Source: Scheffersomyces stipitis CBS 6054
Taxonomy: Eukaryota > Ascomycota > Pichiomycetes > Serinales > Debaryomycetaceae
NCBI RefSeq assembly: GCF_000209165.1
Contig: NC_009043.1
Span: 1,364,001 to 1,428,000, forward strand
Direction of reading: 5' to 3'
Length of the DNA: 64,000 bases
Positions 23,521 to 64,000 of this stretch are shown here, in pieces. The notes beneath the pieces were generated by a model that was given only the letters and a program-made list of their open reading frames with translations, made no database searches and had not been told where the DNA came from. How positions within the stretch are numbered: position 1 is the stretch's first letter; each line of letters opens with the position of its first letter. The translations under genes were made by a program, and so were the position numbers.

Positions 23521-23521
23521 A

Positions 23522-26500
23522 TTAATAATCTATTGTGTTGGAGGGGTTGGCTTCGTGTGAGCCAATCGTGACAGTTACCGGTTGATGAGCCAAATTAGTA
23601 TGGTCAACAATGTCCTGGTGTATACTTGGAGAGTCGACTTGTGTTGGGTCGACGCTTTGACTTTGAAATCTTAGTGAAGGGTCAGATCTTTCCATGTTGT
23701 CCAAAATTGTGGATTCCGGTTCCCCTAGAGTGGATCCTAGTGGGGAATCCGTGATATCCATGACTCTGGCAGGAGGATCTGTTATTGGCGGAGGATCTCG
23801 TAGTGTTGGGATGCGGCTGGCTGAGGTGTTTTGTGCCTGCAGTTCGTCGCGGCTTAAACTAAGAGTCTTATTAAGTGCTTCATGCACCCTTTGGGACTGT
23901 CTTAGAGTCTGACTTTTGTTGGAGTGGGAGAGTCCTATAATAGGAGAGTAAGGGGTCGGTTGCTTCCTTGTGAGAGGGGCTAGGCGACCCGAGTAGGATG
24001 GTGAAGAGATTGGGGTTGCTAGGGGTTTGGTTTTTGATGTGACAAGGGATTTACCTTGCTTTCTTGGGCGAGGCGTGATTGGTTGAAGGAGCGGTTGTGT
24101 TCTGGTCGGTTTGTTGCCAGCGGCATTGATTGTAGGTTCTGGGAGGAGCTCCATTTCTTGGTCCTGAACCTGGTGGCTAAGGATGACGGATGCTTCATCG
24201 TCACGGATATCTTCATCTTCGTCTGAATCGGTGTATCTTACTGTTTCGTCATCATCATCTTGGATGTATTCCCTTTGGATTTGATCTTGTGGTCTCTCGT
24301 TGTTTGAGGTATTGCGAGGTACCCCTGTAGATTTAGGGTGCATGATAGCTCTCATGGTTTGGTGGGAGTCAGGTTGTGCTGACTGGTTATGGCTCACGTG
24401 TTCTGTTACTCCCGATTCTGGGAGGTCGGCGAGTGGCGCGAATCGATTACCTCCTTGTCTATGTTGGGAGATTAAGGGTTGTGGTTCCTTTCGGCGTGGA
24501 GCGCCTTTGGTCACCGGGTTAAACCCATCGTCGTCCTTTTGATGTTGTTTGTATGGACGTGCGTTGTTAGGGGATTCGTTCTGATAAAAATAGGGTACCT
24601 TTGCAACCGGGGCCTTGAATGTTGGGCATCGTTTGGTTGAGTGCTGATTGGTGTGACATTTGAAACAGAATTGGTATGATGAGATAATGTCTAGTTGTAC
24701 ACCCTGCATGAAGGCGTTCTTTCTGTTTGGAATCCTATCCGATTCCGTCGCAATCAAATAGAAAGCAGACTGGAATCTTGACAGAGTCGATCTGCCTTTG
24801 TGGAGTGGTACTTCCCTTCGGTGTTTAGCTAGAATATCGTATACGATAGGCTCTCGTTCTTCCCTGCGTAAAGACCTGTATTGAGGTACTTGATACGTGT
24901 CAAGCGTATTTGGGTTGAACATTGCTTCTAATAGATTGTCTAAGTTTTTGTTTCCAATTGGGGCTTTTATACCCACAAGAAAGACGTTGGGATAACTAGA
25001 AAGAGGAATAAGTTTAAGTGTAAATCTGTAGTTGCCTTCTTCCCCTGTGTAGTAAGGGTCGAATATTTCTTCAAATTTAGTCTTCAGCCATTTCTTTGGA
25101 CCTTGAGATTTGAAGCGTGGAACTACAGTATTACTTTCAGTAATGGAGAAGTTAAAGTTTAAGTGCAGATTGTCCCGGATATGTATGTGGAAATACTCCT
25201 TTATGTCATAAATCCTTTGAGTGATTTGAAGTGTTTTCTCCAACTCTTCAATTTCAAGTTGGGTATTGTTGATGCCCCGCTTCAACTCCTGCTCCAGAGG
25301 GTCCCCTGGGGATATCTGGTTTTGGTAAAATTGAAGTGATTTTTTGAGACTGGCAATACTCTGCTCGGTGTGTTCTTCTAACTCATCTAACCTATCAGGT
25401 ATAGTCTCCTTAAAGTGGGTAAGAATTATCCTAGCTTTGTCCTCGATGCTCATTTGGGGTTTTAACAGGTTCAGTCTGTATTCAAATGAGTCAATGTGGA
25501 CTCTTACATCTAACTTTTCAGCAACGTTTCTGCCGATTGTGCTGAGGGTTGACACTCTTACCTCCTCAGGCGTATCCCAGTCGTCGAACCTTTTCTGTTG
25601 GCCCTTATAGTTTGCTTCCGATAACCCTTCTAAGTGACTGATAAGTGTCGAGTATGTGTCAAACTGGTCAAAGACTTCATTGGTGGTAGGAACGTCCATC
25701 TTCATCTGTTCTTGGAGGGCCTCCATTTTCAGTCTGTATGTTTGAAGTATTTTGTCGGATTCTTTATCGGGAACATCTTGAAGAATATCTGCCCATTTCG
25801 CCTTATTAGGGTTTGGAAGAGGAGTAGATCTAATTGCCTTGGGGTTTGAGGGATGAACCCTTTTCTTAGAAGAACTCTTTGTGGTTCCTAAGAGTGGGTA
25901 TTCCTCTGCTTCAAGGTCTTGTGTATTTTTTTCTGGGATTTTTGTATTTTCTGAGTTTTTTTGGTTTTTATTTAAGTATTGTAAAGATTCAGAATTTTTT
26001 TGGGTTTTTGTATTTTCTTTAAGTTGGTGTACAAGGAGAGAATCTTCTTGTTCGGGCAAGTTCGAGAGGCTGGTTGTAGAATCTAAAGAAATGTGATCCA
26101 TTTCATTATCATCGTTTGCAGCCATTTCCTGGTCGTGTACCTCGTTAGGCACGTGACTTTGAAAAATTTCCGAAACTGAGGTTTCAAAACTTTCCATAGT
26201 AGGACTTAATGGGGTCTGGTTCTGAATAACCAGCCCTTCCATGGGATTATCCCGTAGTTGGGCCGGTTCCTCAGAGGTAGATGACACTGCAGTCACGAAG
26301 GATGGCTCTAAATTGCCGTTTTCATCGGCATCTGTGGACTCGCCATCGAGGTCCATCAGATCAGGGGGTGCGACATGGTCGTGTGGATTTCGGTCAATAT
26401 CCGGTGGTTTTGGCTCGTTTAAGGCTTGATTTGAAGAGCTTTCACCAGAGAAAACCCCTAGAGGTCCCTCTGGCTGATTGATTGGTCGTAGTTCTGACAT
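23522..26500 (-). CDS. LINE ORF1: putative RNA-binding protein with zinc knuckle
   Basis: ORF1 proteins of LINEs coat element RNA. This 992-aa product is polar and low-complexity at both ends. It has a central helical stretch with coiled-coil character (about residues 320-430) and a CCHC zinc knuckle CFKCHTNQHSTKRC at about residues 612-625 (spacing C-X2-C-X4-H-X4-C). The last 350 residues are rich in Pro, Ser, Gln and Thr. A knuckle-bearing ORF1 upstream of an endonuclease/RT ORF2 is the arrangement of Zorro elements. The frame is open throughout. The ATG at 26500 is the first in frame and matches the start of ORF1 in the neighbouring relic (TCTGACAT on the plus strand). Confidence 0.85.
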   Translation of the reverse strand: MSELRPINQPEGPLGVFSGESSSNQALNEPKPPDIDRNPHDHVAPPDLMDLDGESTDADENGNLEPSFVTAVSSTSEEPAQLRDNPMEGLVIQNQTPLSPTMESFETSVSEIFQSHVPNEVHDQEMAANDDNEMDHISLDSTTSLSNLPEQEDSLLVHQLKENTKTQKNSESLQYLNKNQKNSENTKIPEKNTQDLEAEEYPLLGTTKSSSKKRVHPSNPKAIRSTPLPNPNKAKWADILQDVPDKESDKILQTYRLKMEALQEQMKMDVPTTNEVFDQFDTYSTLISHLEGLSEANYKGQQKRFDDWDTPEEVRVSTLSTIGRNVAEKLDVRVHIDSFEYRLNLLKPQMSIEDKARIILTHFKETIPDRLDELEEHTEQSIASLKKSLQFYQNQISPGDPLEQELKRGINNTQLEIEELEKTLQITQRIYDIKEYFHIHIRDNLHLNFNFSITESNTVVPRFKSQGPKKWLKTKFEEIFDPYYTGEEGNYRFTLKLIPLSSYPNVFLVGIKAPIGNKNLDNLLEAMFNPNTLDTYQVPQYRSLRREEREPIVYDILAKHRREVPLHKGRSTLSRFQSAFYLIATESDRIPNRKNAFMQGVQLDIISSYQFCFKCHTNQHSTKRCPTFKAPVAKVPYFYQNESPNNARPYKQHQKDDDGFNPVTKGAPRRKEPQPLISQHRQGGNRFAPLADLPESGVTEHVSHNQSAQPDSHQTMRAIMHPKSTGVPRNTSNNERPQDQIQREYIQDDDDETVRYTDSDEDEDIRDDEASVILSHQVQDQEMELLPEPTINAAGNKPTRTQPLLQPITPRPRKQGKSLVTSKTKPLATPISSPSYSGRLAPLTRKQPTPYSPIIGLSHSNKSQTLRQSQRVHEALNKTLSLSRDELQAQNTSASRIPTLRDPPPITDPPARVMDITDSPLGSTLGEPESTILDNMERSDPSLRFQSQSVDPTQVDSPSIHQDIVDHTNLAHQPVTVTIGSHEANPSNTIDY

Positions 26501-26600
26501 TTACGGCACTATTTTTCTATTGCGGTATTTCACGGTCACGTGATCAAATTTCATTGTTAACTAATTAGGTCTAAATATTGACTCGTTCTAATGCGGAAGC

Positions 26601-26672
26601 GCCTCCTTAGCTTAGTGGTAGAGCGTTGCACTTGTAATGCAAAGGTCGCTAGTTCAATTCTGGCAGGAGGCA
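26601..26672 (+). tRNA. tRNA-Thr (anticodon TGT)
   Basis: Complete cloverleaf without intron: acceptor GCCTCCT pairs with AGGAGGC, anticodon stem TTGCA/TGCAA, loop CTTGTAA with anticodon TGT at 26633-26635, and a TTCAATT T-loop with A and B box sequences in place. Decodes ACA (Thr). No T-run follows; the next 16 bp lead straight into tRNA-Gly. Confidence 0.95.
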
Positions 26673-26688
26673 TAGAGCCAAATTCAAG

Positions 26689-26759
26689 GCGCAAATGGTT
26701 TAGTGGTAAAATCCAACGTTGCCATCGTTGGGCCCCCGGTTCGATTCCGGGTTTGCGCA
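26689..26759 (+). tRNA. tRNA-Gly (anticodon GCC)
   Basis: Complete cloverleaf without intron: acceptor GCGCAAA/TTTGCGC, anticodon stem CAACG/CGTTG, loop TTGCCAT with anticodon GCC at 26721-26723, and T-arm GGTTCGATTCC. Decodes GGC and GGU. A seven-T terminator follows at once. Confidence 0.96.
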
Positions 26760-48667: not shown

Positions 48668-50538
48668 CTATAAAGGTAGATAATCCACTCCCTTATCTAA
48701 CCACTGAGTTAAGAACTCTTCTTGACTTAATTCAGTTTCCCATACCTTTTGAACTATCTCTTTCAAAGAAAAAAGTGTTCCCATTTGAGCGTTCTTGTAC
48801 AACGTTTCCATGAAGTGCATGAGATTGGCTCTTTCTTCTGCACTTTTGCATTCGCATCCCACTGCATAAATTGGCCAAACCATCTGCGTTATCATGGGTG
48901 AAACTGGGTCCATCGAACCGTATACACTAATAAACTCATCGACTAATTTCTTATTTGAGTTCTGAAATCCTGTTGGTTGAATGACCCTATTCAAAGTTAT
49001 CCACACTGCTATAGACCAGCATTGAGCACATTTTAATCTTGTAGTGTAATCTTCTCCACCATCACTATAAAGGACGTAGTCTCTATAATTTATGAGTTCT
49101 ACTTTTATTACTTCGTATTCCTTTAGAACCTTTTCGGTACTCTTCTCAGTCCCATTTCTAACGTCGTGACGCAAATAACATACCTTAGACATGGCTCTGA
49201 AAATCTCCCCGGGGCATCCCATCATTTTGGAAGTTGATATAATGTCATAAGACGTTCCATACCACGTCGGAGAGCAATATGGTAACCGGCAGTCGGGACT
49301 GACAATTGCACTCACAGTATCATACCAGGAGAGAACGACCACTAGTGATCTCTTTTTTTCGTTATCCATAAGCACCCTATAAAATCCAGCGTCTTGGCAA
49401 ATTGATGCAAATACCTTGTAAAAAAATCTTGCCAAGGAACTCTTCCCTTTCTCAAGGACAGCAAACAAAATATGAACATTAATCAAGACTAGTATTACAA
49501 AAGAACTTATTTGCTTTTTCTTATTGTCCGTCTGCGAACCATCAACTGACTCCCTATTAGTACCAATGTATCGGATCAAGTGATCCATTGTATTATTGAT
49601 ATGAGCCATACCTTTGCGATAATACTCACTTCCTCCCTTTCTACTTTCATACATGTGGATGCACGCTAACGATATGAAGCAACTTCTTGCGATATCGAAA
49701 TCACAATACTTTAATGCTAGATCCGGCCAAGGAGAGTTAGGATGAGCATCGAGCAATGGCAAAAGCTTTTTAAAGAAATGCTTCAACATCATGTTCTCCT
49801 CTTGATAAGTTAGAGAATAGTCATCTCTAGCTTCATTGCCCTCTCGATTGCTTGTGATGATATCTCTAGAGAATTCGTTTGATTTGTCCATGAAATCGAT
49901 CATTTCATTATTTATGTTCATATTTCCTTCATTTACTGAATGGCTGCTTGAAAACGAAATTGGGTTGGGTGTATGTATCCTAGAATTTGCATTCACAAAA
50001 TTGGCAACGTCTGGAGCATTAAGAAGCAACTCTAAATCTTCAAAAAGCTCAGAGCTGAATTGTTCGAGATTCGAGCTCGAAGACCTGGACTTCGCATTGA
50101 AAGAGAGAATTGGCGAAGGTGTTCCTCTAGAAGTTAATTCATCTCTTATTGATTCAGAATAGTTCATAGAAGAGGTAGCACTGTTAATCAGTGTACTAGA
50201 AGTAGGAGTATCCGCAATTGGATCAGCAGTTGGCTGAGCTGTTCCCGACTGTGAGGCTTGAATTGCCATATTAACTCGCGGCTTTCCGATAAAAGCAATC
50301 CTAGATTTGTCCTTCTTACTCCAATTTCGAGAATCATCTACGTCAAACGATAGTCGAATACCATAGCCTTCGCATTTTCTATTTGTCTTCAAACAATTGT
50401 TACAGTATGGTTTTCCTTCGTCGCATTTTCTGTGTCTAGACGTAGTCAGTAAAAAGTAATTGCGTTATACTACTACACGATAACATACCTCTTTTTGCAG
50501 GTCCAGCAACCTGTCCTTACTCGTGTGATCTTCCCCAT
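48668..50538 (-). CDS. Zn2Cys6 fungal transcription factor
   Basis: A two-exon gene. Exon 1 (50538-50489) encodes MGKITRVRTGCWTCKKR; a 53-bp intron (50488-50436; donor GTATGT, branch TACTGAC, acceptor TAG) interrupts the zinc cluster; exon 2 continues HRKCDEGKPYCNNCLKTNRKC. The six cysteines have classic spacing (C-X2-C-X6-C-X5-C-X2-C-X6-C), so the splice model is firm. The 605-aa product then has Ser-rich low-complexity sequence and a helical fungal transcription-factor domain (about 230-590, typical of Fungal_trans_2 proteins). Without exon 1 the protein would lack its DNA-binding start. Family resemblance to UPC2/ECM22 or LYS14-like factors was not established, and its targets are unknown. 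Confidence 0.88.
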
Positions 50539-52409
50539 TGATGTTATTGTATTAGTAGGTTCGTTATGCTAGTCAACAATTCTCAAAAACGTTATATTGA
50601 ACTAGGTCGTGCTTCACCCAAAAGAGACCATAGATTGATAGAAAATCCCATAACAGAGAACCATAAATGGTATTCTGTTCCATTGCTCAGAAAGGCTTCA
50701 ATTTAAATGTCTTCGAATGGTTGATTTTTGCACTAAAATGTAAAAGTTCTGCTGATATTCTTTCCGATCACTTTTCAACTGAATATAAACGTCTCACTCT
50801 CAGACCCATTTGATGAATCCGCAATAATTGCAGCCAAGTAATAGCACCATATCCATTTCGGTGAGTCTTTATACATACGAAAAATCATATTTGTGAAAAT
50901 CTGACCGCTACATCTTGAGCAAAGTGCGTTAACAACAGTGGTTGATGAACTTGGCAAAAACATTAGGCATGGGAAAGAGAATAATTTCCCAAACTATTAG
51001 TAGTTGCTCTAGAAGAGTTGACTGAATCTCTGTTAAAAGATCTCATCCCAAAGAAATTTCGAACAAAGTTGCGTTTAATTTATGGATGCAATATTCTTGG
51101 CATACAAGTAGATCTAGATTGAGATCGGTCACACTACGGTTCTTTGGATTCAGATTGGAAAATTTACCTCTATTCGATTTGTTCGGCATCGTGTCGAGAA
51201 AAGGGTTCTTCTAATTCTTTGCCCGTTGGCCCAATTTACGTATCCCTTCCTCTCTGCTCCTTCGTCACTCTTTATGAGATTTTGTGGAGTGGAGTGAAGG
51301 TGCACAAATTGGTGACGAAGAAAAAGCAGGAAGTTCAATTCTTTTAACCTACTCATTGCACACATAAATCTCTATTTTTTATCCAGCAGATAATTCAAAA
51401 CTGTTAGGTTTTTTTGAAAGCGATTCATTTAGCAAATTGAAGTCGTCTTGATTCGACACAAGCTTTGTCTCTCGAAACACATGAGGGTATTATCTCAACA
51501 TTTCGAGGCCATGAGAACAGCTGCTTCATCGTACTTCGCTCCTTAACGGTCATTTCATAGGTTGGAGAAAGGAAAAAAAGTATTAACATCAGTAATAAAG
51601 TCTGTAAATTCTTCAAAACGGAAGAGTGACATTGTACTTAGTCATGAGCTAATATTGATATAATCGATCGACAAAAGTTCAAAAACTAAATAATACTATT
51701 CTAATTGTCTGGAGAACATAATGGAGCTCTTGCAATATCTGTTGTGGAAAGGAATTCAAACTCAATTGGTATTTCCACTTCACCAGTATTTTTTGGCAAG
51801 ATTTACCGTCCTAGCAATTAGAAAGCAATTTGAAAACTTTTTTTTCGGCTTGGAAATTTTGTGCCCACTTTTATAAAGTTTGATGTTAGTCCCGTAGAAC
51901 TATTGCATATCATTAGTTGAAAATGTGGTTCCTGTTGTAATCTAAACTACGGGGAATCTACGCAATACTGTTTACAAACATACACACTTGGAGTTACCAC
52001 TAACAGAAATACATGGTGCATCCAAAACAATTCTGTGATTAAGTACTTGTGGCAACAAGAGCGACAAGTATTGAGCAGACTGTTGGAATTGATATTACAT
52101 CATTGAAAATATAGTTAGCTCTTGATTAAGTAACTTTATAGTTTGAGGGACATGGAACATCTAGTTTATTTATAATGTTGTTCTAGGACCTTAACCTCAA
52201 CCCCTTCCATAATCATTTATTTAACCATTCACATGAACAATGTAAATCTTGTAATCTCTAGGGTAATCATCAGTTTGCAACCAAAACTGCAGACAGTACA
52301 CTGAAGACATTTTCATCAATTTAGCATCCGGCATTAATCCATTTGATGACAATTATAAGAAAGAGTTCTCTATTGGGAAATCCCTTTGTCCATAAGTAAT
52401 TTGGTCAAC
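50539..52409. other. Gene-free stretch before the retrotransposon cluster
   Basis: About 1.9 kb in which no gene, RNA or recognisable element is seen. Short frames at 50775-50963 (minus) and 51144-51365 have no domain. The sequence looks A/T-rich compared with the genes on the left. It adjoins the Ty5-like cluster and could be part of a centromeric region. Confidence 0.55.
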
Positions 52410-52692
52410 ATGGAGTTGACATACTCACCCCCATTTCCAGTGCGAAGACTACCGGCACGACACGACACCTAAGGGTAGGAGGATCTTGGGAAAGTGAGGA
52501 CCGGAAACTTCAAAGTGAAGGAGCTGCAAGGGAGCTATGATAGCAGTATCGGCAGAAGACTTAGGAAGACGACGAGTGCGCTTTACGAAACTTCAACGTT
52601 CATATGCTGCAGGCATAAGAAATCATCATCTGAATGATATTGAGAGATGATTGTCTTTTCCAACGCTGCATGAGGGCTACCCAAGCTTTCAT
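52410..52692 (-). pseudogene. Degenerate integrase fragment of a Ty5-like element
   Basis: Short segments resemble the integrase region of the better preserved minus-strand copy: CATACTCACCCCCATTTCC here against AACTCACCTCCATTGTC (57,780), and GGACCGGAAACTTCAAAGTGAAGGAGCTGCAAGGGAGC here against the block at 57,980-58,020. Large deletions and stops leave no usable frame. This is the most decayed copy in the cluster. Confidence 0.6.
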
Positions 52693-53085
52693 TGATGAAC
52701 TGTTTGCTTTGGAAGCTCCTTAGATTAAATCAGATTGTCTAAATTCTTGTGAAGATAATGTGTTAGAACTTATTTAAGATAAATAATTTCCATATATATG
52801 AAGAAAAGTTATAGAAACTTATAAAGGAGAAGGGGAAGAAGGACCCCCTAAATAGATTACAAATCCAACCATCGGTTGACGCCATATTACGATGAAATAA
52901 GGCGAGAGCGATTTCAGATTAGTTGATCGTAATTGTTTCTCATTGGAAGATGTATCTTATCATCTTAATGTGTGGCACATTTAAGTCGAAATGGCTGCAA
53001 ATCCTGCACATATAAAATTTGAGCATTGGATTAAAAAGAGTATTGAAGAAAGATCCCTTCATATTCAATATTAGCAAATTCAACA
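52693..53085 (-). repeat. Diverged LTR (type B), abutting integrase sequence
   Basis: Matches the type-B LTR at 59366-59758 along its whole length (shared TGAACTGTTTGCTTTGGAAG start, CTTATTTAAGATA, AAAGGAGAAGG, GGCTGCAAATCCTGCA, and the TTCAACA end). There is no target duplication (left flank TTCAT, right flank CAGAA). On its right it joins retroelement integrase sequence without a polypurine tract, so a deletion ended at the LTR edge. Confidence 0.75.
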
Positions 53086-54947
53086 CAGAAACGCACAACG
53101 ACATTGAGTGAGACCAGGAGTTGAGCCAGAATAGAAGGAAATGTGTGTGATCCACCACCTCCACCACCACCAAGGGGAGTATACAAAGAGGAGGAAGACT
53201 TCACACGTCCGGCAAATGGAAACACATTTTCATGGAATCGAACATGATGTGAGGTAATCACTTGATTCGTTACAAAATCATAAATAAGATGTCCTTTTCC
53301 AAAGGTACCGGTTCCGAGATCAACACCCATGGCCCTGGCCCGAGAGACCAACTTCAGTTGACGATGATTGGGTAGAACATTCACAAAGGCAGCACACCCA
53401 AACACTTTGAGTTGAGATAAGATAGGCCCCGCGTCATGCCAGAGTTCAAATGGAGAACGACTACGGAGAAAAGGAGTTAGTAACTGGTTTAGGAGAAATG
53501 AAGATTGATGGAGTACATGCGGGAAAAGCAGCGAAGGAAGGGAGCACGTAGTGATCATGGTACGCGTTTTATCAAGAACGGAGCGAATCGCTCTTTCAGC
53601 ACGTCTTGCGAATCACCCGAGTGCTCTTGGAGCTAAGACATGCTTCACATGAAATCGAGTCGTGAACAACCGTGCGAGGCATGTTCGGATATTTCAAGGC
53701 CAGTCGAACGACAGTAGGAGAGGGGTGGCCAAGGCGAGCATGAACAAGAGCAGAGGCAGAAACAGGTGCCACACCAGCGTCCGCAGCAGGAGCAGCGACC
53801 GTAACAGGAGCGGGGGCCGAGTAGGCAGAGTGGTTAGCCCGCGAGACAGTCGAGGGGCGGACAATTTTGAGACACAGCAAGTAAAGATTTCTCAGGTCTC
53901 TGGTAGCAAGTTGGCCATACTTAAGGCGAACAATGTCATCATGAGAGATAACAAGTTTGTCGCCCGTAGTAGTAACAGCCAGGATGGAAAGAAGATTCTG
54001 AGTACAGTCAGGAACATAAAGAACGTTAAAGACACGAATCTTCTGACCTTGGAGATCAAACACAAGAGTACCACGACCGGCAATCGAGAGAGGTTCTTCG
54101 TGACAGAACCAGAGAAAGACTTCTCTTGTTACAAATGTGGGTAGAAGCACCTGAATCAAAAATAAAGCTGGCAGAGGAAGAAGAAGCCAAGAGAGCATAG
54201 TGGGTGTGTTGAACATAATGGGCATAGTATGAAGTAGGATAATCGAAACCATAACCCAGATACAGATCAAATTAATCAACATCAGCAAGCCCATAATGCG
54301 CCAAGAGATGTTAGACGAGAACCATGTTTTCTGCGATTTGTTGAGCCACCTGGGAAACGATGTGCCATATGAGGAACTTAACTTTCACGAAAAGGAGAGG
54401 TGCAGGAATTCGCCGTATGACCACACCCATAGCAATTGTAGCAGTCAATATTCCACACCGGGTCATTACCTTTTGCTCTCGTCATGTTGCGAGTAACCTG
54501 ACGACGGCCAGATGGAGAAGGCGTTATTGCATACCCAGATTGAGACGAGGACAGTACAAGCAAGGCGGAGGATATTGCAGGTGGGGAAAGCTCATCATGA
54601 TAGGTAAAGAAATTCAAAACTTCGTCCGCCGTCACGGTGGCAGTCAGTCCAACTTGAGAAAAGAAGAGATCTCTCACCTTGGAGTTCCCTGTACCATAAA
54701 GGAAGAGGAGCGCTTTCCTGGACTCGTCATTGTACTTGGCCATAAACGCAGTCAACTTTTCAGCAATCAATAACCCAGCTTCAGTCGTAATGGTCGGATC
54801 AGCAAGGCGATCAAATAAGTACTTGAGATAGCCGACCGCATCCCTATAGCTGGCGATTGTGTACTTGGTTTCGACAGCTTTCCAAGTTTCCACCCCCAGA
54901 GGGTATTGTTCAAACAACGCCTGAACGTCAGGCTGTTGGAATGACAT
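53086..54947 (-). pseudogene. Defective Ty5/copia-type gag-pol remnant, copy 1
   Basis: Reading leftward from 54947: a 189-aa Gag frame (54378-54947) ending in a CCHC knuckle CYNCYGCGHTANSC; a protease/pre-integrase part (53596-54294) with the LSIAGRGTLVFDL and LVHARLGHPSP sequences but a frameshift before the expected protease DSGA; then, after a deletion of the integrase catalytic core, a late integrase part (53086-53590, AIRSVLDKTRTMI, SPFELWHDAGPILSQLKVFGCAAF). Reverse transcriptase and RNase H are absent. The element cannot be autonomous. Part of it is almost identical to copy 2, the rest clearly diverged. Confidence 0.85.
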
Positions 54948-55099
54948 TATTCCTTTCCTATTACTTGATGAAGCTAGTCTGTGTATTAGTATTAAGTACT
55001 TCAGATGACTATAGACAATTTCTATAAACAGGGAATTTCCTGTAGAATTTATACAAAATTCTCTGTATGTAGATTTTGTGTCGATGAGACGGGAGAAAA

Positions 55100-55433
55100 T
55101 GTTTAAATTTCAAAGAATTGAAACTGTAATTGCAGATGACTATGTGCAGTACTATATACAAATTTACAAATAAGGAAGTTCCACTGGTCCTACCTCTGAG
55201 AATAGGAGTAACCCCACACCAGATCCGCCTCAACGGAATAGAACTTATCCGTAATGAAATTGGAGACGGGCTAAAGATAAGAATAAGAATAAGGGGGAAG
55301 ATAATGGGTTCTGAACAATATAAATATGATAGGATATTCTCCAATATCAGAAGAAAAATCAGAACTTGAAATTGAACTTCATTATCAAGAGTTAACTATA
55401 TCTTTATTAATATGCAATGTCTAATTTTCAACA
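55100..55433 (+). repeat. Solo LTR (type C) with target duplication GAAAA
   Basis: A 334-bp LTR running TGTTTAAATTTC...TTTTCAACA and matching the LTR of the right-hand element (60263-60623) with scattered differences and a small deletion. It is bounded by the same 5 bp, GAAAA, at 55095-55099 and 55434-55438, which proves insertion and later LTR-LTR loss of the interior. It sits inside leader sequence upstream of copy 1 Gag. Confidence 0.92.
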
Positions 55434-55507
55434 GAAAACTTTTCATCTCTAAACCAGACATTGCTTGACACCAACATTCTGTTTTACCCCTTATAGTTAC
55501 TTGAACT

Positions 55508-55728
55508 TGTTGAAACTCATTGGGATATGATGGTCTATAGTTCATATGGACCGTCTTAATGGACTATCTATTTGTACCTTGTCTGTCTTCTTCCGTTACC
55601 TTGATACAACTGTCTAGGCAAGGCACGCAACTTGCCTATATGCATATAGAATATCCTGCAATTATTCAATATATTTTTTTCTACATCTCTAAAATAACCT
55701 CCCTCAAATGAATCATAAATTGATTAAC
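55508..55728 (+). repeat. Partial LTR (type A) fused to a type-B LTR
   Basis: Begins TGTTGAAACTCATTGGG and then follows the type-A LTR (58881-59312, other strand) through GATATGATGGTCT, TTGATACAACTGT and CTCCCTCAAATGAATC. It ends at ATTGATTAA (55720-55728), where type-B LTR sequence takes over in the opposite orientation. Confidence 0.75.
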
Positions 55729-56042
55729 TTATTTAAGATAGATAATTTCCATATACAAGAAAAAAAGTTATAGAAAGTTAGAAAGGAGAAGGGGGAGTAA
55801 GACCCCCTTAAATAGATTCCAATCCTACCATAGGCCGACGCCACATTAGGATGAAATGAGGCAAGATTAGCAATTTCAGATTAATTAAACATAATCGTTT
55901 CTTATTGGTAGATGATATCAACATCTTTATGTGTGGCACAATTATGTCTAAATGGCTGCAAATCCTGCACTTGTAAAGTTAACGCATTGGATTAAAAATA
56001 GTATAGAATATGCCTTTAGGTTTGATATCAGCATATTCAACA
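55720..56042 (-). repeat. Truncated 3' LTR (type B) of Ty5-like copy 2
   Basis: Matches the type-B solo LTR (59366-59758) from ATTGATTAACTTATTTAAG to GCATATTCAACA; the first 66 bp on the left are missing. On the right it is followed by TCCCCCCT (56043-56050), the complement of a polypurine tract, so it is the 3' LTR of the minus-strand pol remnant beyond. Confidence 0.85.
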
Positions 56043-56052
56043 TCCCCCCTTA
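56043..56052 (-). other. Polypurine tract of Ty5-like copy 2
   Basis: Reads TAAGGGGGGA on the minus strand directly before the LTR start TGTTGAA, as at the right-hand element (GGGGGGA at 63787-63793). This is the plus-strand DNA primer site of an LTR retrotransposon. Confidence 0.85.
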
Positions 56053-58880
56053 ATCCAATGGTCATTTTATTATGTTAGTTCCATTCTTGATAGTTCGATT
56101 AACTTGTTGGAAGGCTACCCGTGGTAGTCCTTTTGTAAACATGTCTTCAACGTTGTCGGCAGATTTGATTTGGCGAAGTTTGACAATATTGTCTATGATT
56201 TTGCCACGGATGAAGCGATAGCAATATCTATGTGTTTCGTACGTTCGTGGTGTACAGGATGTTCGCTGAGTTTGATACACGAGGTGTTATCTTCCCAAAT
56301 CATTATTGGTAGTGATATTGGGATGTGAAGTTCTCTGAAGAATGTTATTAGCCAGATAACTTCTTTGATAACTGTGGCGAGGGCCATGTACTCAGCTTCA
56401 GTGGTCGACAATGCTGTGGTGGTTTGTTTCTTGGATTTCCAAGAGATTAGGCTTCCCCCATACTTGATGGCATACCCACTGATTGATTTCCTGTCACTGC
56501 TATCACTTCCCCAGTCTGAGTCAACAAACACTTGTAGATCGTTTATGTTTGTGTAGTGCTGACCAAGTTTCTGTGTTCCCTTTAGATAGCGGAGAACATG
56601 TTTGGCGGCAGTTAGAGTTACCTCTGTTGGTTCGTTGAGGTACCGACTTAACATTCCAACAATATACGCAATATCACCTCGAATGGTATTGCTAGCGTAA
56701 AGAAGCTTTCCTACTATGCTTCTGTAAATTGTTGCATCGCAGGGTTTGGATTTCTGGTTTAGATGCTGTCCCTGAATAATAGGACTTTTCACGCTGTTGA
56801 GCTCTTCAAGATTTAATTCCTCCAACGTTTTCTTGATGGAGTCAGAAAGATTTGCTGTGATCCCATCAGGGCCCTGTTCTATGTTGATTCCTAGGAATTT
56901 GCGTGCCAATCCAAGATCCTTCATCTTGAACTTGTTCAGGAGAAGTTTCTTAACTTCGTAGATTTCATTAAGGTACCGGAGCAGAAGAAGGTACCGGAGT
57001 AGGAGAAGGTACCAGAATAGGAGAAGGCACCGGCGTAGGAGTCGACGGAGGCTGCGACAGAGGAGTAGTAGATGCAGCAGGAGAGACCGGTGCCGAAACA
57101 GACGACAGAGCTGCAGATGAACCTGGCGATTGAGCAACAGTACTGCCAGATGGCGTGGATGGAGGCGAAGGAGATGGGGGCAGAGACACACGAGGACCCT
57201 GAGTGAGGCCTGGAGCAGGTGCCAGAATAGAAGGGAAACTTCCACCACCACTACCTCCACCACCAATGGAGGTAGCCGACACAGCAGTAGACGTCAGAGG
57301 TCTAGCAAAAGGAAAGACATTTTCCTGGAACCGAACATGAGAAGAGGTAATCACTTGTCTGGTAGCGAGATCATAAACAAGATGAGCTTTCCGAAACGGA
57401 TCAGATCCAAGATAAACACCCTTGATTGCACGAGCGACCAACTTCAGTTGACGGTGATTGGGTGGAACATTCACAAAGGCAGCACACCCAAACACTTTAA
57501 GTTGAGATAAGATAGGCCTCGCGCCATGCCAGAGTTCAAATGGCGAGCGATTTTGGAGAACAGGTGTTGGTAGCCTGTTTAGGAGAAATGCAGCATGTTG
57601 GAGTGCATGCGGGAAGAGGTGCGAAGGAAGAGAGCTCGCAGTGATCATGGTACGCGTTTTATCAAGAACGGAGCGAATCGCTCTTTCAGCACGTCCATTT
57701 TGATGTGAGTTACCAGGCACAGTGAGCTGGGTCTGGATACCTTCTGCCGCAAAGAATGAAGTAAGCGTCAGATTGACAAACTCACCTCCATTGTCAGAAC
57801 GAAAGTTACAGACACGGTAGCCACCACGACTGGAGAAGTGTTTTGTCCATGCCTTAATAACTTTGATAATGAAGTCCGCAGCATCCGATTTCTTGAGAAG
57901 AGGGCCAACAGCCTTGAAGCGAGTAAAGTCGTCAAGAAGAATACAAAAATAAAACAACGAGGAGGGACCACCGGCATGAGGACCGGACAAATCACAGTGA
58001 AGAAGTTGCAAGGGAGCAGATGTGACTGGGCCGGTGGTCGTTTTGGGAATAACCCGAGTGCTCTTGGAGCTAAGACATGCTTCACATGAAATCGAGTCGT
58101 GAACAGCCGTGCGAGGCATGTTCGGATATTTCAAGGCCAGACGAACGACAGTCGGAGAAGGGTGGCCAAGGCGAGCATGGACAAGAGCAGAGGCAGAAAT
58201 TGGTGCCACACCAGCGTCCGCAGCAGGAGCAGCGACCGTAACAGGAGCGGGGGCCGAGTAGGCAGAGTGGTTAGCCCGCGAGACAGTCGAGGGGCGGACA
58301 ATTTTGAGACACAGCAAGTAAAGATTTCTCAGGTCTCTGGTAGCAAGTTGGCCATACTTAAGGCGAACAATGTCATCATGAGAGATAACAAGTTTGTCGC
58401 CCGTAGTAGTAACAGCCAGGATGGAAAGAAGATTCTGAGTACAGTCAGGAACATAAAGAACGTTAAAGACCCGAATCTTCTGACCATGGAGATCAAACAC
58501 AAGAGTACCACGACCGGCAATCGAGAGAGGCTCGTGACCGGCGTTCATGACAGAACCAGAGTGAGGAATGATGTCATGGAAGAGACTTCTATCGTTACAA
58601 ATGTGGGTAGAAGCACCTGAATCAAAAATAAAGCTGGCAGAGGAAGAAGAAGCCAAGAGGGCATAGTGGGTGTAGTGAGCGAGATGAGCATAGTAAGCAC
58701 CAGGTTGGTCAAAACCAAAAGTCAGAGCATCATCAGTGAGAGCATAATGAGCAGCAGGCTTTGGACGAGAGCCGTGCTTCCTGCGGTGCTTTCCTGGACC
58801 GCCAGGACCGAAGCGTGAGGCCATACGAGGAACTTCACCCTCACGATAAGGAGCAGGGCAGTTCTTGGCCATGTGACCAC
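56053..58880 (-). pseudogene. Defective Ty5/copia-type gag-pol remnant, copy 2
   Basis: Reading leftward from 58880: the end of the Gag zinc knuckle (GHMAKNC), protease with FDSGASTHIC, pre-integrase LVHARLGHPSP, the integrase zinc-binding and catalytic parts (CEACLSSKS, LLDDFTRF, SDNGGEFVN, NGRAERAIR), then a Pro/Val/Ser-rich linker. Near 56,972 a deletion fuses the linker out of frame to late reverse transcriptase (KMKDLGLARKFLGIN) and RNase H (DSDWGSDSSDRKS, ALSTTEAEYMAL). The catalytic YVDD of the reverse transcriptase is lost. A frameshift near 56,200 breaks the end (KHIDI, then ...DMFTKGLPRV). Most of Gag is missing. It is not autonomous. Confidence 0.9.
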
Positions 58881-59312
58881 TGTTGAGATTGGAAATCTAG
58901 AGTAATCCAATAGATTGAAGTTTAGTTATATAACAAGAAACTGAGCGTGCAAGAAACTGCGAATGCAAGAAATAATATTTCAGAATAGAAGCATTATTCA
59001 GAAACGCACAGGTTGCAAATTAAGCCGCACTGATGTGCAGGCAACTCTGAGGTATAAAAGAAAGCTGAAATCCTCAAAGTCTTGAAGAAGTTTATACGTT
59101 TATAATTAATCAATTTACGATTCATTTGAGGGAGGTTATTCTAGAGATGTAGAGAATAACATATTGAACGACTGTAGGATACGCTGTATCCATATAGACA
59201 AGTTGCGCGCCTTGTCTAAACAGTTGTATCAAGATAGAGAAGAAGACAGACAAATTACAACATGGATATGCAATCAAGAGGTCTACATAAACTAGAGACC
59301 ATCATATCAACA
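58881..59312 (-). repeat. LTR (type A), joined directly to the Gag knuckle
   Basis: A 432-bp LTR, TGTTGATATGATGG...CAATCTCAACA on the minus strand. It runs straight into Gag codons at 58880 with no primer-binding site, so the leader and most of gag were deleted. Flanking pentamers (ACCAC left, ATTCA right) differ, as expected when one side is a deletion junction. Confidence 0.8.
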
Positions 59313-59365
59313 ATTCATATTTCAATAACTAGTTTTTTGACAATCCACTGACTGATTCTCGTTAG

Positions 59366-59758
59366 TGTTGAACTGTTTGCTTTGGAAGCTCAGTAGATTG
59401 AATCGGATTGTTCATAATGTAGGACAGTATATTGATTAACTTATTTAAGATAGATAATTTCCATATAGAAGAAGAAAAGTTATAGAAAGTTAGAAAGGAG
59501 AAGGGGGAGTAAGACCCCCTTATATAGATGCCAAATACAATCACAGGCTGACCCCTCATCAGGATGAAATGAAACGACATGACCAGAATTTCAGGTTAGT
59601 CGGACATAATTGATTCTCATTGGTAGATGTTATCTTATCACATTACTGTGCACAATTATGTCTGAATGGCTGCAAATCCTGCATTCATAAAGTTTACGCA
59701 TTGGATTAAAAATAGAATATAGAATATGCTTTTAGGTTTGATATCAGCATATTCAACA
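59366..59758 (-). repeat. Solo LTR (type B) with target duplication GTTAG
   Basis: A 393-bp LTR, TGTTGAATATGC...CAGTTCAACA on the minus strand, bounded by the identical pentamer GTTAG at 59361-59365 and 59759-59763. This defines the true ends of the type-B LTR and is the reference for the two other copies. Confidence 0.93.
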
Positions 59759-59892
59759 GTTAGTCCTGTTTGAATAGTTGCTATTGTTAGTCACTTGTGA
59801 CTATGCTGCTAGTACTGTAGGACCATTTACTGTGGGTGACGTGTAATTACTTCCTGTCAGCTCTATGTGACCATTTGCAGTAGTCGTTCCCA

Positions 59893-60191
59893 TCTGTTTA
59901 CTGCAAGCAAATAAGGAAGTTCCACTGGTCCTATCTCTGAGAATAGGAGTAACCCCTTATCAGACCCGCCTCAACGGAATAGAACTTATCCGTAATGAAA
60001 TTGGAGGCGGGCTAGAGATAAGAATAGGGGGAGATAAGAATATGAATAAGGGGGAAGATAAGGGGATCTGAACAATATAAATATGGTAGGATATTCTCCA
60101 ATATCAGAAGAATAATCAGAACTTGAAATTGAACTTCATTATCAAGAGTTAACTATATCTTTATTAATATACAATGTCTAATTTTTCAACA
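59893..60191 (+). repeat. Partial LTR (type C)
   Basis: From CAAATAAGGAAGTTCC to TTTTTCAACA this matches the LTR at 60263-60623 almost base for base; the first ~80 bp of the LTR are replaced by unrelated sequence. It lies 71 bp upstream of the complete LTR in the same orientation. Confidence 0.85.
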
Positions 60192-60262
60192 AATATCTGT
60201 TGAAGTTCAGAAGCATTCATAGTGTCTTACGTGTAATAATTGTTAACAGTAAAGGTAGAACT

Positions 60263-60623
60263 TGTTGAAATTCAGAGAATTGAAACTATAATTGTAATCT
60301 AACAATCAGATAACTATGTGCAGTACTGGCTGCAAATTTACAAATAAGGAAGTTCCACTGGTCCTATCTCTGAGAATAGGAGTAACCCCTTATCAGACCC
60401 GCCTCAACGGAATAGAACTTATCCGTAATGAAATTGGAGGCGGGCTAGAGATAAGAATAGGGGGAGATAAGAATATGAATAAGGGGGAAGATAAGGGGTT
60501 CTGAACAATATAAATATGGTAGGATATTCTCCAATATCAGAAGAATAATCAGAACTTGAAATTGAACTTCATTATCAAGAGTTAACTATATCTTTATTAA
60601 TATACAATGTCTAATTTTCAACA
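60263..60623 (+). repeat. 5' LTR (type C) of the Ty5-like element
   Basis: Starts TGTTGAAATTC and ends TTTTCAACA. Contains AATATAAATATGG (about 60506-60518), a plausible TATA region, before the R/U5 part. It is identical to the visible part of the 3' LTR. Confidence 0.93.
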
Positions 60624-60636
60624 GGTTATGAGCCCT
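60624..60636 (+). other. Primer-binding site for half of initiator tRNA-Met
   Basis: GGTTATGAGCCCT, directly after the LTR, is complementary to the anticodon stem-loop of yeast initiator tRNA-Met (AGGGCUCAUAACC). Ty5 and Drosophila copia prime from the anticodon region of a cleaved tRNA-iMet in this way; ordinary LTR elements use the tRNA 3' end. Confidence 0.88.
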
Positions 60637-63600
60637 GAAGTCTTCCATCGCTACGGTCACCACCGCTCCCTTACAGTTACTTCACTCTGATGTTTCAGGT
60701 CCTCACTTCCCGAAATCCTCCTACCCTCCTGAGAAGTACTTTCTTATTATTGTTGATGACTTCACCAAGTTCAAATGGGTAATCCCCATTGCACAGAAGT
60801 CCGAGGTCTCCGCTCAATTGATTCGACACATCAAGCTCTTTCATTCTTTCTTCTCCACTCGTGGTGGATACCGTGTCGGTAGTATTCGTACTGATAACGG
60901 GGGTGAGTATGTCAACTCCACGTTGACCAAATTCCTTCAGGACGAAGGGATTTCTCATCAGAGAACGGTGCCTTATAATTCTCATCAGAATGGCACCGCA
61001 GAACGTGCTATTCGTACCATTCTTGATAAAGCCCGAACTCTTCTGACTCATGGTTCGGTGCCTGCTGTGTTCTGGCCGTATGCTGTTGTCTGTGCTGCCT
61101 ATCTTATTAATCGTCAACCCCTGCTCCAAGCTCCGTTCGTGTCTCCGTATGAGCGTTGGTTCCAGATCCGCCCCGTTATTGCGCATCTCCGTCCTTATGG
61201 ATGTGCTGCTTATGCCCATATCCCTGAATCTCACCGTCCACTGAAGTTTTCTGAAAGGGCCATCACTGGGGTGATGTTAGGTTACGATGGATCTCGCCAT
61301 GCTTATCTCATCTATGAAATGCACTCTCGCAAAGTTGTTTGTTCTAATGCTGTTACGTTCAACGAACTGTTGTTCCCCTTTGCTTCTCTGCCTGGTCTCC
61401 CAGTTCCCCTGTCTACCGTGTCTTCCGTGTCTACCGTGTCTATGCCTATCCTGTCTATCTCTGTGTCCCTTCCTGGGGGTGTGTCTGCCCCACCTATTCC
61501 TGTTCGTTCTATGTTGCTGCCTGTTTCTGATCTTCTGTCTGATGATGTGGCCATGGCTGATGACGCTGCCATGGCTGATGACGATACCATTGTTGATAAT
61601 GGTACCGTAATTGATGACGTCGTCCTGCCTGTTGCTAGTAAACTGCTTGTTGCTAGTAGGCTGGCTGATGATGGTGCCCTGGCTGATGATTCGGCCATGT
61701 CCGATGATTATGTCATGGATGATGAGACTATGTCTCTCGCACCGATACCATCTTGTTCCGACTACGACTCGTGCTATTCTTATGACTCGGATATTTCTCC
61801 TGACGCGGATGATGATGAAACCCTTCCCATCCAGCCTACCACCGTGATTTCTCCTGTTTCTCTGCGCGCTTCTTCCAATGCTTCTTCACGTCCGCAATGT
61901 CTTGCTGGCCCTGCACCTCCTCTTCTTCTCACTCATGAATCCAATTCTGGGGGGAAACAGATTCAGATCCACAGCAAGTCTCATGCATCGAGAAGAACTT
62001 ACGATACACCAAATATGAATCAGGAAGAGATAAGTGAGCGAAGGCTCACTAAACATAAGCTTACACCAGTTCCCTCTTATGACAATGCTGTGGCTCACAA
62101 GAAGGTTAGAATTGAATACATAAGTGACTACGAAGGAGATTCTCCTGAGTCTTTGAATGATGATCCAAATGATGAAGATTACCAAATGTCAGAAGCAAAT
62201 GTGGTAATTCGAGGACATGCGTTCACGGCTACAACAAGTGTTTTAGGTAGCCCCAAGATTCCCAGAAGCTATAGCGAAGCTGTCGGAAGCCAAGACGCTG
62301 GGAAATGGATAGAAGCAATGAACGATGAAATGTCTGCACATGAAATGAACCAGACGTGGGTTCTTGCAGACAAGCCAAATGATAAAACAAAAGTGTTAGG
62401 TGTGAGATGGGTGTATACCATCAAGGATGATGGTCGATACAAAGCAAGATTAGTCGCAAGAGGTTTTCAACAGAGATATGGTGTTGATTACGAAGAAACC
62501 TTTGCTCCAGTAATCAGAAGTGAGAGTGTAAAGGTGCTACTCTCCGTATCTGCTGTGTATGGGATGAAAGTTCATCAGATGGATGTAACGACAGCATTCC
62601 TAAATGGAAAAATCGATTTACCAATATTCATGAATCAACCAGATGGATTCAAGCATACAAATGAACTTGGGAAAGTATGCAAACTCAACAAGTCACTCTA
62701 TGGTCTAAAGCAAGCTCCGTTGATATGGAACAAGACAATAAATGCGTTTCTCGAGAAGGTGGGGTTTGTTAGGTCACAAGCTGAATTCGGATTATACAAA
62801 AGAAAGAACACTATTGTCGGTTTATATGTGGATGACCTATTGATAGCAAGCAGTAATGAAAATGAGATCAAGGCTATCAAAGAATTGTTGAAGAAGGAAT
62901 TCAAAATGAAAGACCTCGGCATTGCACAGAAATTCCTTGGAATAAACATACAGCAATCAGAAAAAGGTATTAGAGCCCATTTGGGAGACTACATTGACAA
63001 AATCTTGGAGGAATTCTCAATGCAAGATTGCAACCCAGTTGGAACTGCAGCAATTCCAAATGCTCAGTTAGATAAAGATGAAACCAAGATTCTTGCCAAT
63101 CCTACAATTTACAGATCCATTGTTGGCAAGTTATTATATGCTAGTAACACCATTCGGGGAGATATTAGCTTCATTACTGGCATGCTCAGCCGGTACTTTC
63201 AGAATCCTAGAGAGGGACATCTAGTAGCAGCTAAGCATGTACTTCGGTACCTAAAAGGAACAAAGACTGTGGGCCAGGTATATGGAAAACTGGATAAATT
63301 CGAGGTGTACGTTGATGCAGATTGGGGTTCTTCGCTGTCAGATAGAAAATCAATAACAGGATATGCAATTAAGTTCGGAGGAAGTCTAATCTCGTGGAAA
63401 TCAAAGAAACAACCAACAGTTGCACTATCTACAACAGAAGCCGAGTATATGGCACTTGCTGAAGCAGTTAAGGAGGTCCTCTGGTTGGTGACTCTATTTA
63501 AAGAATTGGAAATCCCTGTAACCCTTCCAATTATAGTACATGAAGATAATACGTCATGTATTAACTTAACGAATCATCCAACAACTCATCAACGTACAAA

Positions 63601-63769
63601 ACACATTGATATCAGATATCACTTTATAAGAGAGCAGGTACAGAAAGAATTGATCAAGGTTGTCCAAGTTCAGTCAACAAATAATATCGCGGACATCTTT
63701 ACGAAGGCAGTTCCCAAGCCATTACTCCAGCAACTACGAAACTCAGCAGGAATGATGGATATTGAATAA
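60632..63769 (+). CDS. Truncated Ty5-like Pol: integrase core, RT and RNase H
   Basis: The frame opens at 60632 after a TGA and has no ATG before 60818, so it may not be translated from this element alone. Order: integrase core (LHSDVSGPH, VDDFTKF, RTDNGGEYVN, NGTAERAIR: D, D, E present), GAATC-type linker with Asp/Ala/Met repeats (about 61,540-61,720), reverse transcriptase (WVYTIKDDGRYKARLVARG, MDVTTAFLNG, YVDD at 62825-62836), and RNase H (DADWGSSLSDRKS, ALSTTEAEYMAL, HEDNTSC), ending FTKAVPKPLLQQ. Gag, protease and the integrase zinc-binding half are missing. A second-frame HRYGHHR near 60,650 may be a leftover of that half. Remaining catalytic residues look intact. Confidence 0.9.
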   Translation, partial: ALKSSIATVTTAPLQLLHSDVSGPHFPKSSYPPEKYFLIIVDDFTKFKWVIPIAQKSEVSAQLIRHIKLFHSFFSTRGGYRVGSIRTDNGGEYVNSTLTKFLQDEGISHQRTVPYNSHQNGTAERAIRTILDKARTLLTHGSVPAVFWPYAVVCAAYLINRQPLLQAPFVSPYERWFQIRPVIAHLRPYGCAAYAHIPESHRPLKFSERAITGVMLGYDGSRHAYLIYEMHSRKVVCSNAVTFNELLFPFASLPGLPVPLSTVSSVSTVSMPILSISVSLPGGVSAPPIPVRSMLLPVSDLLSDDVAMADDAAMADDDTIVDNGTVIDDVVLPVASKLLVASRLADDGALADDSAMSDDYVMDDETMSLAPIPSCSDYDSCYSYDSDISPDADDDETLPIQPTTVISPVSLRASSNASSRPQCLAGPAPPLLLTHESNSGGKQIQIHSKSHASRRTYDTPNMNQEEISERRLTKHKLTPVPSYDNAVAHKKVRIEYISDYEGDSPESLNDDPNDEDYQMSEANVVIRGHAFTATTSVLGSPKIPRSYSEAVGSQDAGKWIEAMNDEMSAHEMNQTWVLADKPNDKTKVLGVRWVYTIKDDGRYKARLVARGFQQRYGVDYEETFAPVIRSESVKVLLSVSAVYGMKVHQMDVTTAFLNGKIDLPIFMNQPDGFKHTNELGKVCKLNKSLYGLKQAPLIWNKTINAFLEKVGFVRSQAEFGLYKRKNTIVGLYVDDLLIASSNENEIKAIKELLKKEFKMKDLGIAQKFLGINIQQSEKGIRAHLGDYIDKILEEFSMQDCNPVGTAAIPNAQLDKDETKILANPTIYRSIVGKLLYASNTIRGDISFITGMLSRYFQNPREGHLVAAKHVLRYLKGTKTVGQVYGKLDKFEVYVDADWGSSLSDRKSITGYAIKFGGSLISWKSKKQPTVALSTTEAEYMALAEAVKEVLWLVTLFKELEIPVTLPIIVHEDNTSCINLTNHPTTHQRTKHIDIRYHFIREQVQKELIKVVQVQSTNNIADIFTKAVPKPLLQQLRNSAGMMDIE

Positions 63770-63786
63770 TCCGATTATTAGATTAT

Positions 63787-63793
63787 GGGGGGA
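63787..63793 (+). other. Polypurine tract of the Ty5-like element
   Basis: GGGGGGA directly before the 3' LTR start TGTTGAAATTC, the same arrangement as in copy 2. Confidence 0.88.
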
Positions 63794-64000
63794 TGTTGAA
63801 ATTCAGAGAATTGAAACTATAATTGTAATCTAACAATCAGATAACTATGTGCAGTACTGGCTGCAAATTTACAAATAAGGAAGTTCCACTGGTCCTATCT
63901 CTGAGAATAGGAGTAACCCCTTATCAGACCCGCCTCAACGGAATAGAACTTATCCGTAATGAAATTGGAGGCGGGCTAGAGATAAGAATAGGGGGAGATA
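63794..64000 (+). repeat. 3' LTR (type C), truncated by the window end
   Basis: The first 207 bp of the LTR are present and identical to 60263-60469. The right end and the target duplication lie outside the window. Confidence 0.93.

Follow-up and report, generated by a model that had tools for sequence, protein, structure and literature searches.

Introduction

The genome of Scheffersomyces stipitis Y-11545 comprises 15.4 Mbp in eight chromosomes, and its centromeres are described as made up of the Ty5-like elements Tps5a, Tps5b and Tps5c together with LARD (PMC8546629). According to the same paper they were recognized as the sole places where Tps5 elements form a large cluster (ca. 20 to 40 kb), and they vary among isolates; as far as the available parts of these papers go, PMC12711049 and PMC7263194 agree on this make-up. 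PMC12711049 also raises the question whether yeast centromeres are built by Ty5-like elements or are merely where these gather. Here we analyze a 64,000-nucleotide stretch of S. stipitis CBS 6054 chromosome 3 (C3:1364001-1428000; hereafter the window), whose right end is filled with such elements, in the context of the whole genome sequence (15,441,179 bases in 8 contigs, C1 to C8). Coordinates without a contig name refer to the window, and the names Tps5a, Tps5b, Tps5c and LARD are given here from the published description, not by match to the published sequences. Regional centromeres of S. stipitis are reportedly treated by Coughlan & Wolfe 2019 and by Lynch et al. 2010. Judged by sequence comparison, the end of the window very likely represents the left portion of CEN3, the regional centromere of chromosome 3. 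This type of centromere is already known in print, since PMC8546629 describes those of S. stipitis as Tps5a/b/c and LARD.

Genome-wide distribution of Ty5-like clusters

We found that the long terminal repeat (LTR) and reverse transcriptase sequences of the window map to one Ty5-like cluster per chromosome on 8 of the 8 contigs, as the initial annotation had expected of a centromere. All clusters are internal, the nearest being ~254 kb from a contig end and that of C3 382 kb, so that the subtelomeric location considered there as an objection was not encountered. The clusters hold 25 of 26 genome matches of the Tps5a LTR (LTRa), all 45 of LTRb, 41 of 42 of LTRc and, with the oldest LTR of the window as query, 44 of 44. 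Reverse transcriptase matches fall into the clusters in 59 of 83 cases, with all 8 contigs represented; the 24 others are scattered and all distant (31-36% identity). The cluster spans used total 304 kb of 15.4 Mb, and their limits were set from matches rather than host genes at the right of C1, the left of C2, C6 and C8 and both sides of C4. Deserts delimited by host genes at left and right measure 44.9 kb on C3, 45.2 kb on C7 and 26.7 kb on C5, the other five clusters being without such bounds.

On C3, the last host open reading frame (ORF) before the desert encodes a transcription factor (48668-50269, Fungal_trans_2), whose Zn-cluster exon, judged by eye, seems to extend to ~50.5 kb. The next host ORF of at least 150 amino acids starts at C3:1459382, and the window therefore holds only the left 13.5 kb, or left third, of the desert. 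The absence of any recognisable host gene from these 13.5 kb, claimed from the start, was thus borne out. Nested insertions and relics alone are no proof of a centromere, and an ordinary heterochromatic graveyard of elements would display them as well; yet, one internal cluster on each of the eight chromosomes, in agreement with the S. stipitis centromeres as far as their published description was available, makes such a graveyard extremely unlikely and sustains the initial identification of the region as a centromere or its edge. We are therefore confident that the best explanation of the whole is a regional centromere built of Tps5 and LARD, present as one cluster per chromosome and, in the four clusters read, layered by age, with Tps5 plausibly aimed at a predicted Cse4 core.

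The base composition is in partial agreement with the GC-poor centromeric trough that had been proposed. GC content at third codon positions (GC3) of host ORFs becomes lower with proximity to the cluster (rho 0.41, P 0.002; 54 ORFs beside C3, C5 and C7), with a mean of 0.37 within 10 kb of the cluster (n=29) versus 0.46 at a distance of at least 20 kb (n=7, all left of C3, where the work covered 114 kb). In contrast, the deserts of C3, C5 and C7 are GC-richer (0.43-0.435) than their flanks (0.375-0.382), so the element DNA itself is not GC-poor.

Organization of elements in the window

From 52339 to 64000, Ty5-like families or LARD match, in both orientations, everything except ~260 nt (54935-55098 and 55428-55523). 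The description of the whole 13.5 kb as filled with Ty5/copia-type copies therefore stands from 52339 to the right edge, but not for 50540-52338, which is single-copy AT-rich DNA. The features, recognized by sequence search unless other support is given, are as follows (percentages are identities; + and - denote the strand).

50540-52338, no strand: AT-rich border from the last host gene to the first element piece, GC 0.356; its genome match is itself only
52339-52692, -: Tps5a-like relic in two pieces, 83% and 76%
52693-53085, -: old LTRb, full length, 76% to a young family copy
53086-54934, -: decayed Tps5b-like coding relic, 80-83%; ORF 53596-54294 with Pol_BBD and gag_pre-integrs domains
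55099-55432, +: old LTRa, 86%
55524-55714, -: LARD LTR relic, 82-83%; also match C3:1419524-1419732 in the LARD LTR search
55716-58880, -: Tps5b-derived deletion derivative with an inverted 99.4% partner at the opposite rim (C3:1454003-1457166); RVT/integrase ORFs 56193-56924 and 56968-58872
58881-59327, +: LARD LTR, 98%, with LARD internal pieces after it at 59326-59365 and 59759-59907
59366-59758, -: solo LTRb, 99%, within LARD sequence; 5-bp target duplication GTTAG/GTTAG
59908-60191, +: partial LTRa, 99%
60197-60262, -: LTRc interrupted by the Tps5a derivative, left piece only; the right one (C3:1428154-1428541) is beyond the window's edge
60263-64000, +: young Tps5a deletion derivative (C3:1424263-1428154, ending 154 bases past the window); target duplication GAACT/GAACT

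Two insertions of the window, the solo LTRb in LARD and the Tps5a derivative in LTRc, thus retain exact 5-bp target duplications, which agrees with the nesting and the solo LTRs reported in the initial annotation. The two LTRs of the Tps5a derivative differ at 1 of 361 sites, and its ORF (61274-63769) contains SH3_retrovirus and RVT_2 domains. Because it lacks gag and other 5' internal sequence found in the C6 copy, ~1.4 kb in all, this derivative would seem unable to be autonomous as it stands. The border 50540-52340 was also considered as DNA common to centromeres and rejected, as it has no match elsewhere in the genome.

All three families (a, b, c) and the non-coding, LTR-bounded LARD, which shares their primer site, are present in the C3 cluster or the part of it within the window. 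The Tps5 elements exhibit the hallmarks of the copia type, i.e., integrase ahead of reverse transcriptase, TG...CA LTRs and 5-bp target duplications. The sequence directly after the Tps5a LTR, GGTTATGAGCCCTG (60624-60637), is a primer site of the initiator tRNA-Met type; it fits the tRNA-Met anticodon arm, the assignment to the initiator tRNA being putative, and its complement has 11 genome matches, 8 in clusters and 3 in tRNA-Met genes elsewhere. An initiator-tRNA-Met primer site is, according to the available part of PMC12711049, diagnostic of the Ty5 family. Among cluster copies, several pol frames are open and stop-free, and an S. stipitis database protein shows 99% identity to the C3 Tps5c protein (residues 600-1100).

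The linkers between integrase and reverse transcriptase, compared in one copy each of Tps5a, Tps5b and Tps5c (C6:908372-912964, C3:1435462-1441059 and C3:1441922-1446205), hardly align except for a common patch, EYI...DPND..Y, after a basic stretch. Among 24 relatives tested from the 120 listed of 3275 matched, the fixed pattern was present in the S. stipitis record and in none of the 23 others, two of which carry a looser basic patch at the linker position. The patch was set aside as a candidate targeting motif; it may be just a nuclear-localisation patch.

Age layering within the clusters

The age structure was analyzed by a sensitive search in the C3, C5, C6 and C7 clusters, which yielded 66 LTR pieces; the analysis rests on the 63 that are 60 nt or longer. 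The left limit of C6 is the end of the sequence taken, not a host gene. We observed that LTR identity rises with relative distance from the desert edge, whether it is measured against the closest other copy in these clusters (rho 0.64) or against the family copy (rho 0.63). Neither value was matched in 5000 shuffles within clusters (0/5000), and all four clusters are positive singly. The 12 pieces without any other copy at 93% identity or more lie at a median of 2.1 kb from the edge, versus 11.0 kb for the remaining 51. LTRs belonging to the same element are not independent data points; when such pairs are counted once and LARD LTRs are included, rho is 0.63 for 59 loci (0/5000 shuffles), a version in which some pairs are wrong, e.g., C3:1419100 joined to 1424623. 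Because of these pairing errors we keep the unpaired test as the main one. As for the remaining clusters, one 10-kb edge piece of each was read, and relic LTRs (72-86%) occur in those of C1, C2 and C8; none was found in the C4 piece, and the C4 edge holds a relic reverse transcriptase with 12 stops.

Copies thus appear to be layered by age in the four clusters read, with old rims and a young core, hinting that insertion of new copies takes place in the core. As faster turnover of the core would give the same layering, aimed insertion is something that we infer from it. No description of age layering in S. stipitis was found in the available parts of the literature searched, Coughlan & Wolfe 2019 being outside the reach of that search.

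Inverted copies and recombination

The deletion derivative at 55716-58880 and its partner at the opposite rim form inverted arms of 3165 bp around the C3 core, and a similar inverted pair, 94.2% identical, occupies both rims of C7 (C7:254849-257251 and 294620-297010). Such rim arms recall the inverted-repeat centromeres of Candida tropicalis, in which arms frame the core. Yet, both pairs are Tps5 deletion derivatives, the right arm of C7 resembles a C6 copy (99.4% over 1545 bp) more than its own partner, and no comparable framing pair was found at C5; in the comparison of C3, C7 and C5, therefore, an inverted repeat framing the centromere of every chromosome did not emerge. We reject this organization as very unlikely. 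Deletion derivatives of Tps5b and Tps5a recur in the clusters, as the inverted pairs at the C3 and C7 rims and also at the right rim of C6 (C6:913293-914836).

Deeper in the C3 cluster, two Tps5c copies, C3:1441498-1446676 (+) and C3:1448205-1453383 (-), are identical except at 4 of 5179 sites. The former is flanked by AGTAG and GCCAA and the latter, read on its own strand, by GCCAA and AGTAG. The DNA immediately left of the (+) copy and the inverted DNA immediately left of the (-) copy are two parts of a Tps5b copy that share 5 bp, and an equivalent relation holds for the two borders of the second copy with the other segment end. The exchanged target-site flanks and overlapping border parts indicate that the intervening 1,528 bp are inverted with respect to the insertion state, either by recombination or by misassembly of near-identical repeats.

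A stretch common to the LARD LTR and chromosome ends

With the LARD LTR as query, 41 matches were obtained, of which 23 are in the clusters and 18 lie no more than 10 kb from a contig end, at 14 of the 16 ends. The end matches cover just the middle of the LTR at 68-80% identity. The stretch aligned at the C3 end, 115 nt in length and 78% identical to the LARD LTR at 58881-59327, carries a TATA-like box and contains TATAAAAG; in 18 of the 18 end matches it is oriented toward the telomere. In turn, a 700-bp piece of the chromosome end (C3:501-1200) gave 51 matches, of which 39 lie within ~26 kb of contig ends, at all 16 ends, and the remaining 12 are LARD LTRs in clusters, with nothing else away from ends. 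The stretch common to LARD LTR and end repeat is promoter-like and may function as a promoter; it provides another clue to what these elements carry or recognize.

Targeted insertion or persistence in the core

The distribution and layering of copies are consistent with a mechanism in which Cse4 chromatin would cover the middle of each cluster and Tps5 integrases would be aimed at it. Every new insertion would then displace earlier copies outward, where decay would follow, while recombination among copies would reshuffle the array. Targeting of the core by Tps5 is plausible on these grounds. A fuller version, which we offer tentatively and would not call probable, likens the cluster to a conveyor belt: Tps5 and LARD would enter a fixed Cse4 core, older copies would be pushed rimward and the age gradient would record the past core, and, given the LARD module at all chromosome ends, one retroelement lineage may have exploited both silent chromatins.

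Alternatively, Tps5 may insert widely and persist in the gene-free centromere as in a safe haven, with the layering generated by faster deletion, conversion and nesting in the core; the region would be a centromere all the same. Recombination within CEN3 is visible, and insertion outside the clusters does occur, as attested by a solo LTRa that survives on an arm. However, other copia elements (the 24 distant reverse transcriptase matches) and long interspersed nuclear elements (LINEs; 36 protein matches) persist on the arms, which evidently do retain elements, whereas for Tps5 the arms hold one full LTR and one fragment versus 111 cluster matches in the three family searches. We consider this explanation rather unlikely. 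None of the LINE matches lies in a cluster, the nearest being C1:2256566, ~10 kb from that of C1; the spans cover just 2% of the genome, and the freedom of the clusters from other elements is thus no evidence of exclusion. The LINE of the window itself (19966-26759) comprises two long frames, 19966-23520 (RVT_1) and 23522-26500, and ends ~100 bases from a tRNA-Thr/tRNA-Gly pair; its relatives are scattered across chromosomes.

Several observations temper the picture of aimed, age-layered clusters. The searches score best candidates only, so the element counts are lower bounds, and the full reading covers four of the eight clusters. An old LTR piece at C3:1447021, without another copy at 93% or more, lies 12.3 kb inside CEN3, and an LTRc match at C8:313913 (82%) is situated well within its cluster, contrary to the layering trend. 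Outside the clusters, there are an LTRc piece of 88 nt (C6:33961-34048, 94%), ~34 kb from the left end of C6, and the solo LTRa mentioned above (C7:557819-558179), which is of full length with 3 of 361 sites changed, is flanked by the duplication GGTGG/GGTGG and sits on the arm ~258 kb from the C7 cluster; no tRNA gene was found beside it within the 500 bases read. These features mark the solo LTRa as a recent and real arm insertion, and the confinement of Tps5 to the clusters is consequently strong but not absolute. The initial suggestion that the elements may target centromeric chromatin is accordingly supported indirectly, by location and layering, and any strict confinement is not. The rare LTRa away from a centromere serves as a natural control showing what untargeted insertion looks like. 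For targeted insertion, the age layering predicts that the Cse4 peak and new insertions will both be located in the young cluster middle and that the rims represent former core.

Comparison with known systems

Ty5 of Saccharomyces targets silent chromatin via Sir4, at telomeres and silent mating loci. Tps5 belongs to the same copia-type family and would likewise be aimed at silent chromatin, but its clusters are found at centromeres. Plant centromeric retrotransposons (CRM) are Ty3/gypsy elements that are concentrated at centromeres and nested; in these two respects they resemble the elements described here, whose domain order is, in contrast, that of copia.

Much closer are the published S. 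stipitis centromeres, with which our clusters share the Tps5 elements, the organization in one cluster per chromosome and 20-40 kb or more of element DNA. The age layering, the exchanged Tps5c flanks and the stretch common to LARD and subtelomeres are described here and do not feature in the available part of PMC8546629. Ty5-like elements are likewise gathered at the centromeres of Ogataea polymorpha, Debaryomyces hansenii and Cyberlindnera sargentensis (PMC12711049, PMC7482064, PMC7263194, as far as available); those of C. sargentensis are described as pseudogenes, whereas several copies in the S. stipitis clusters retain stop-free pol frames.

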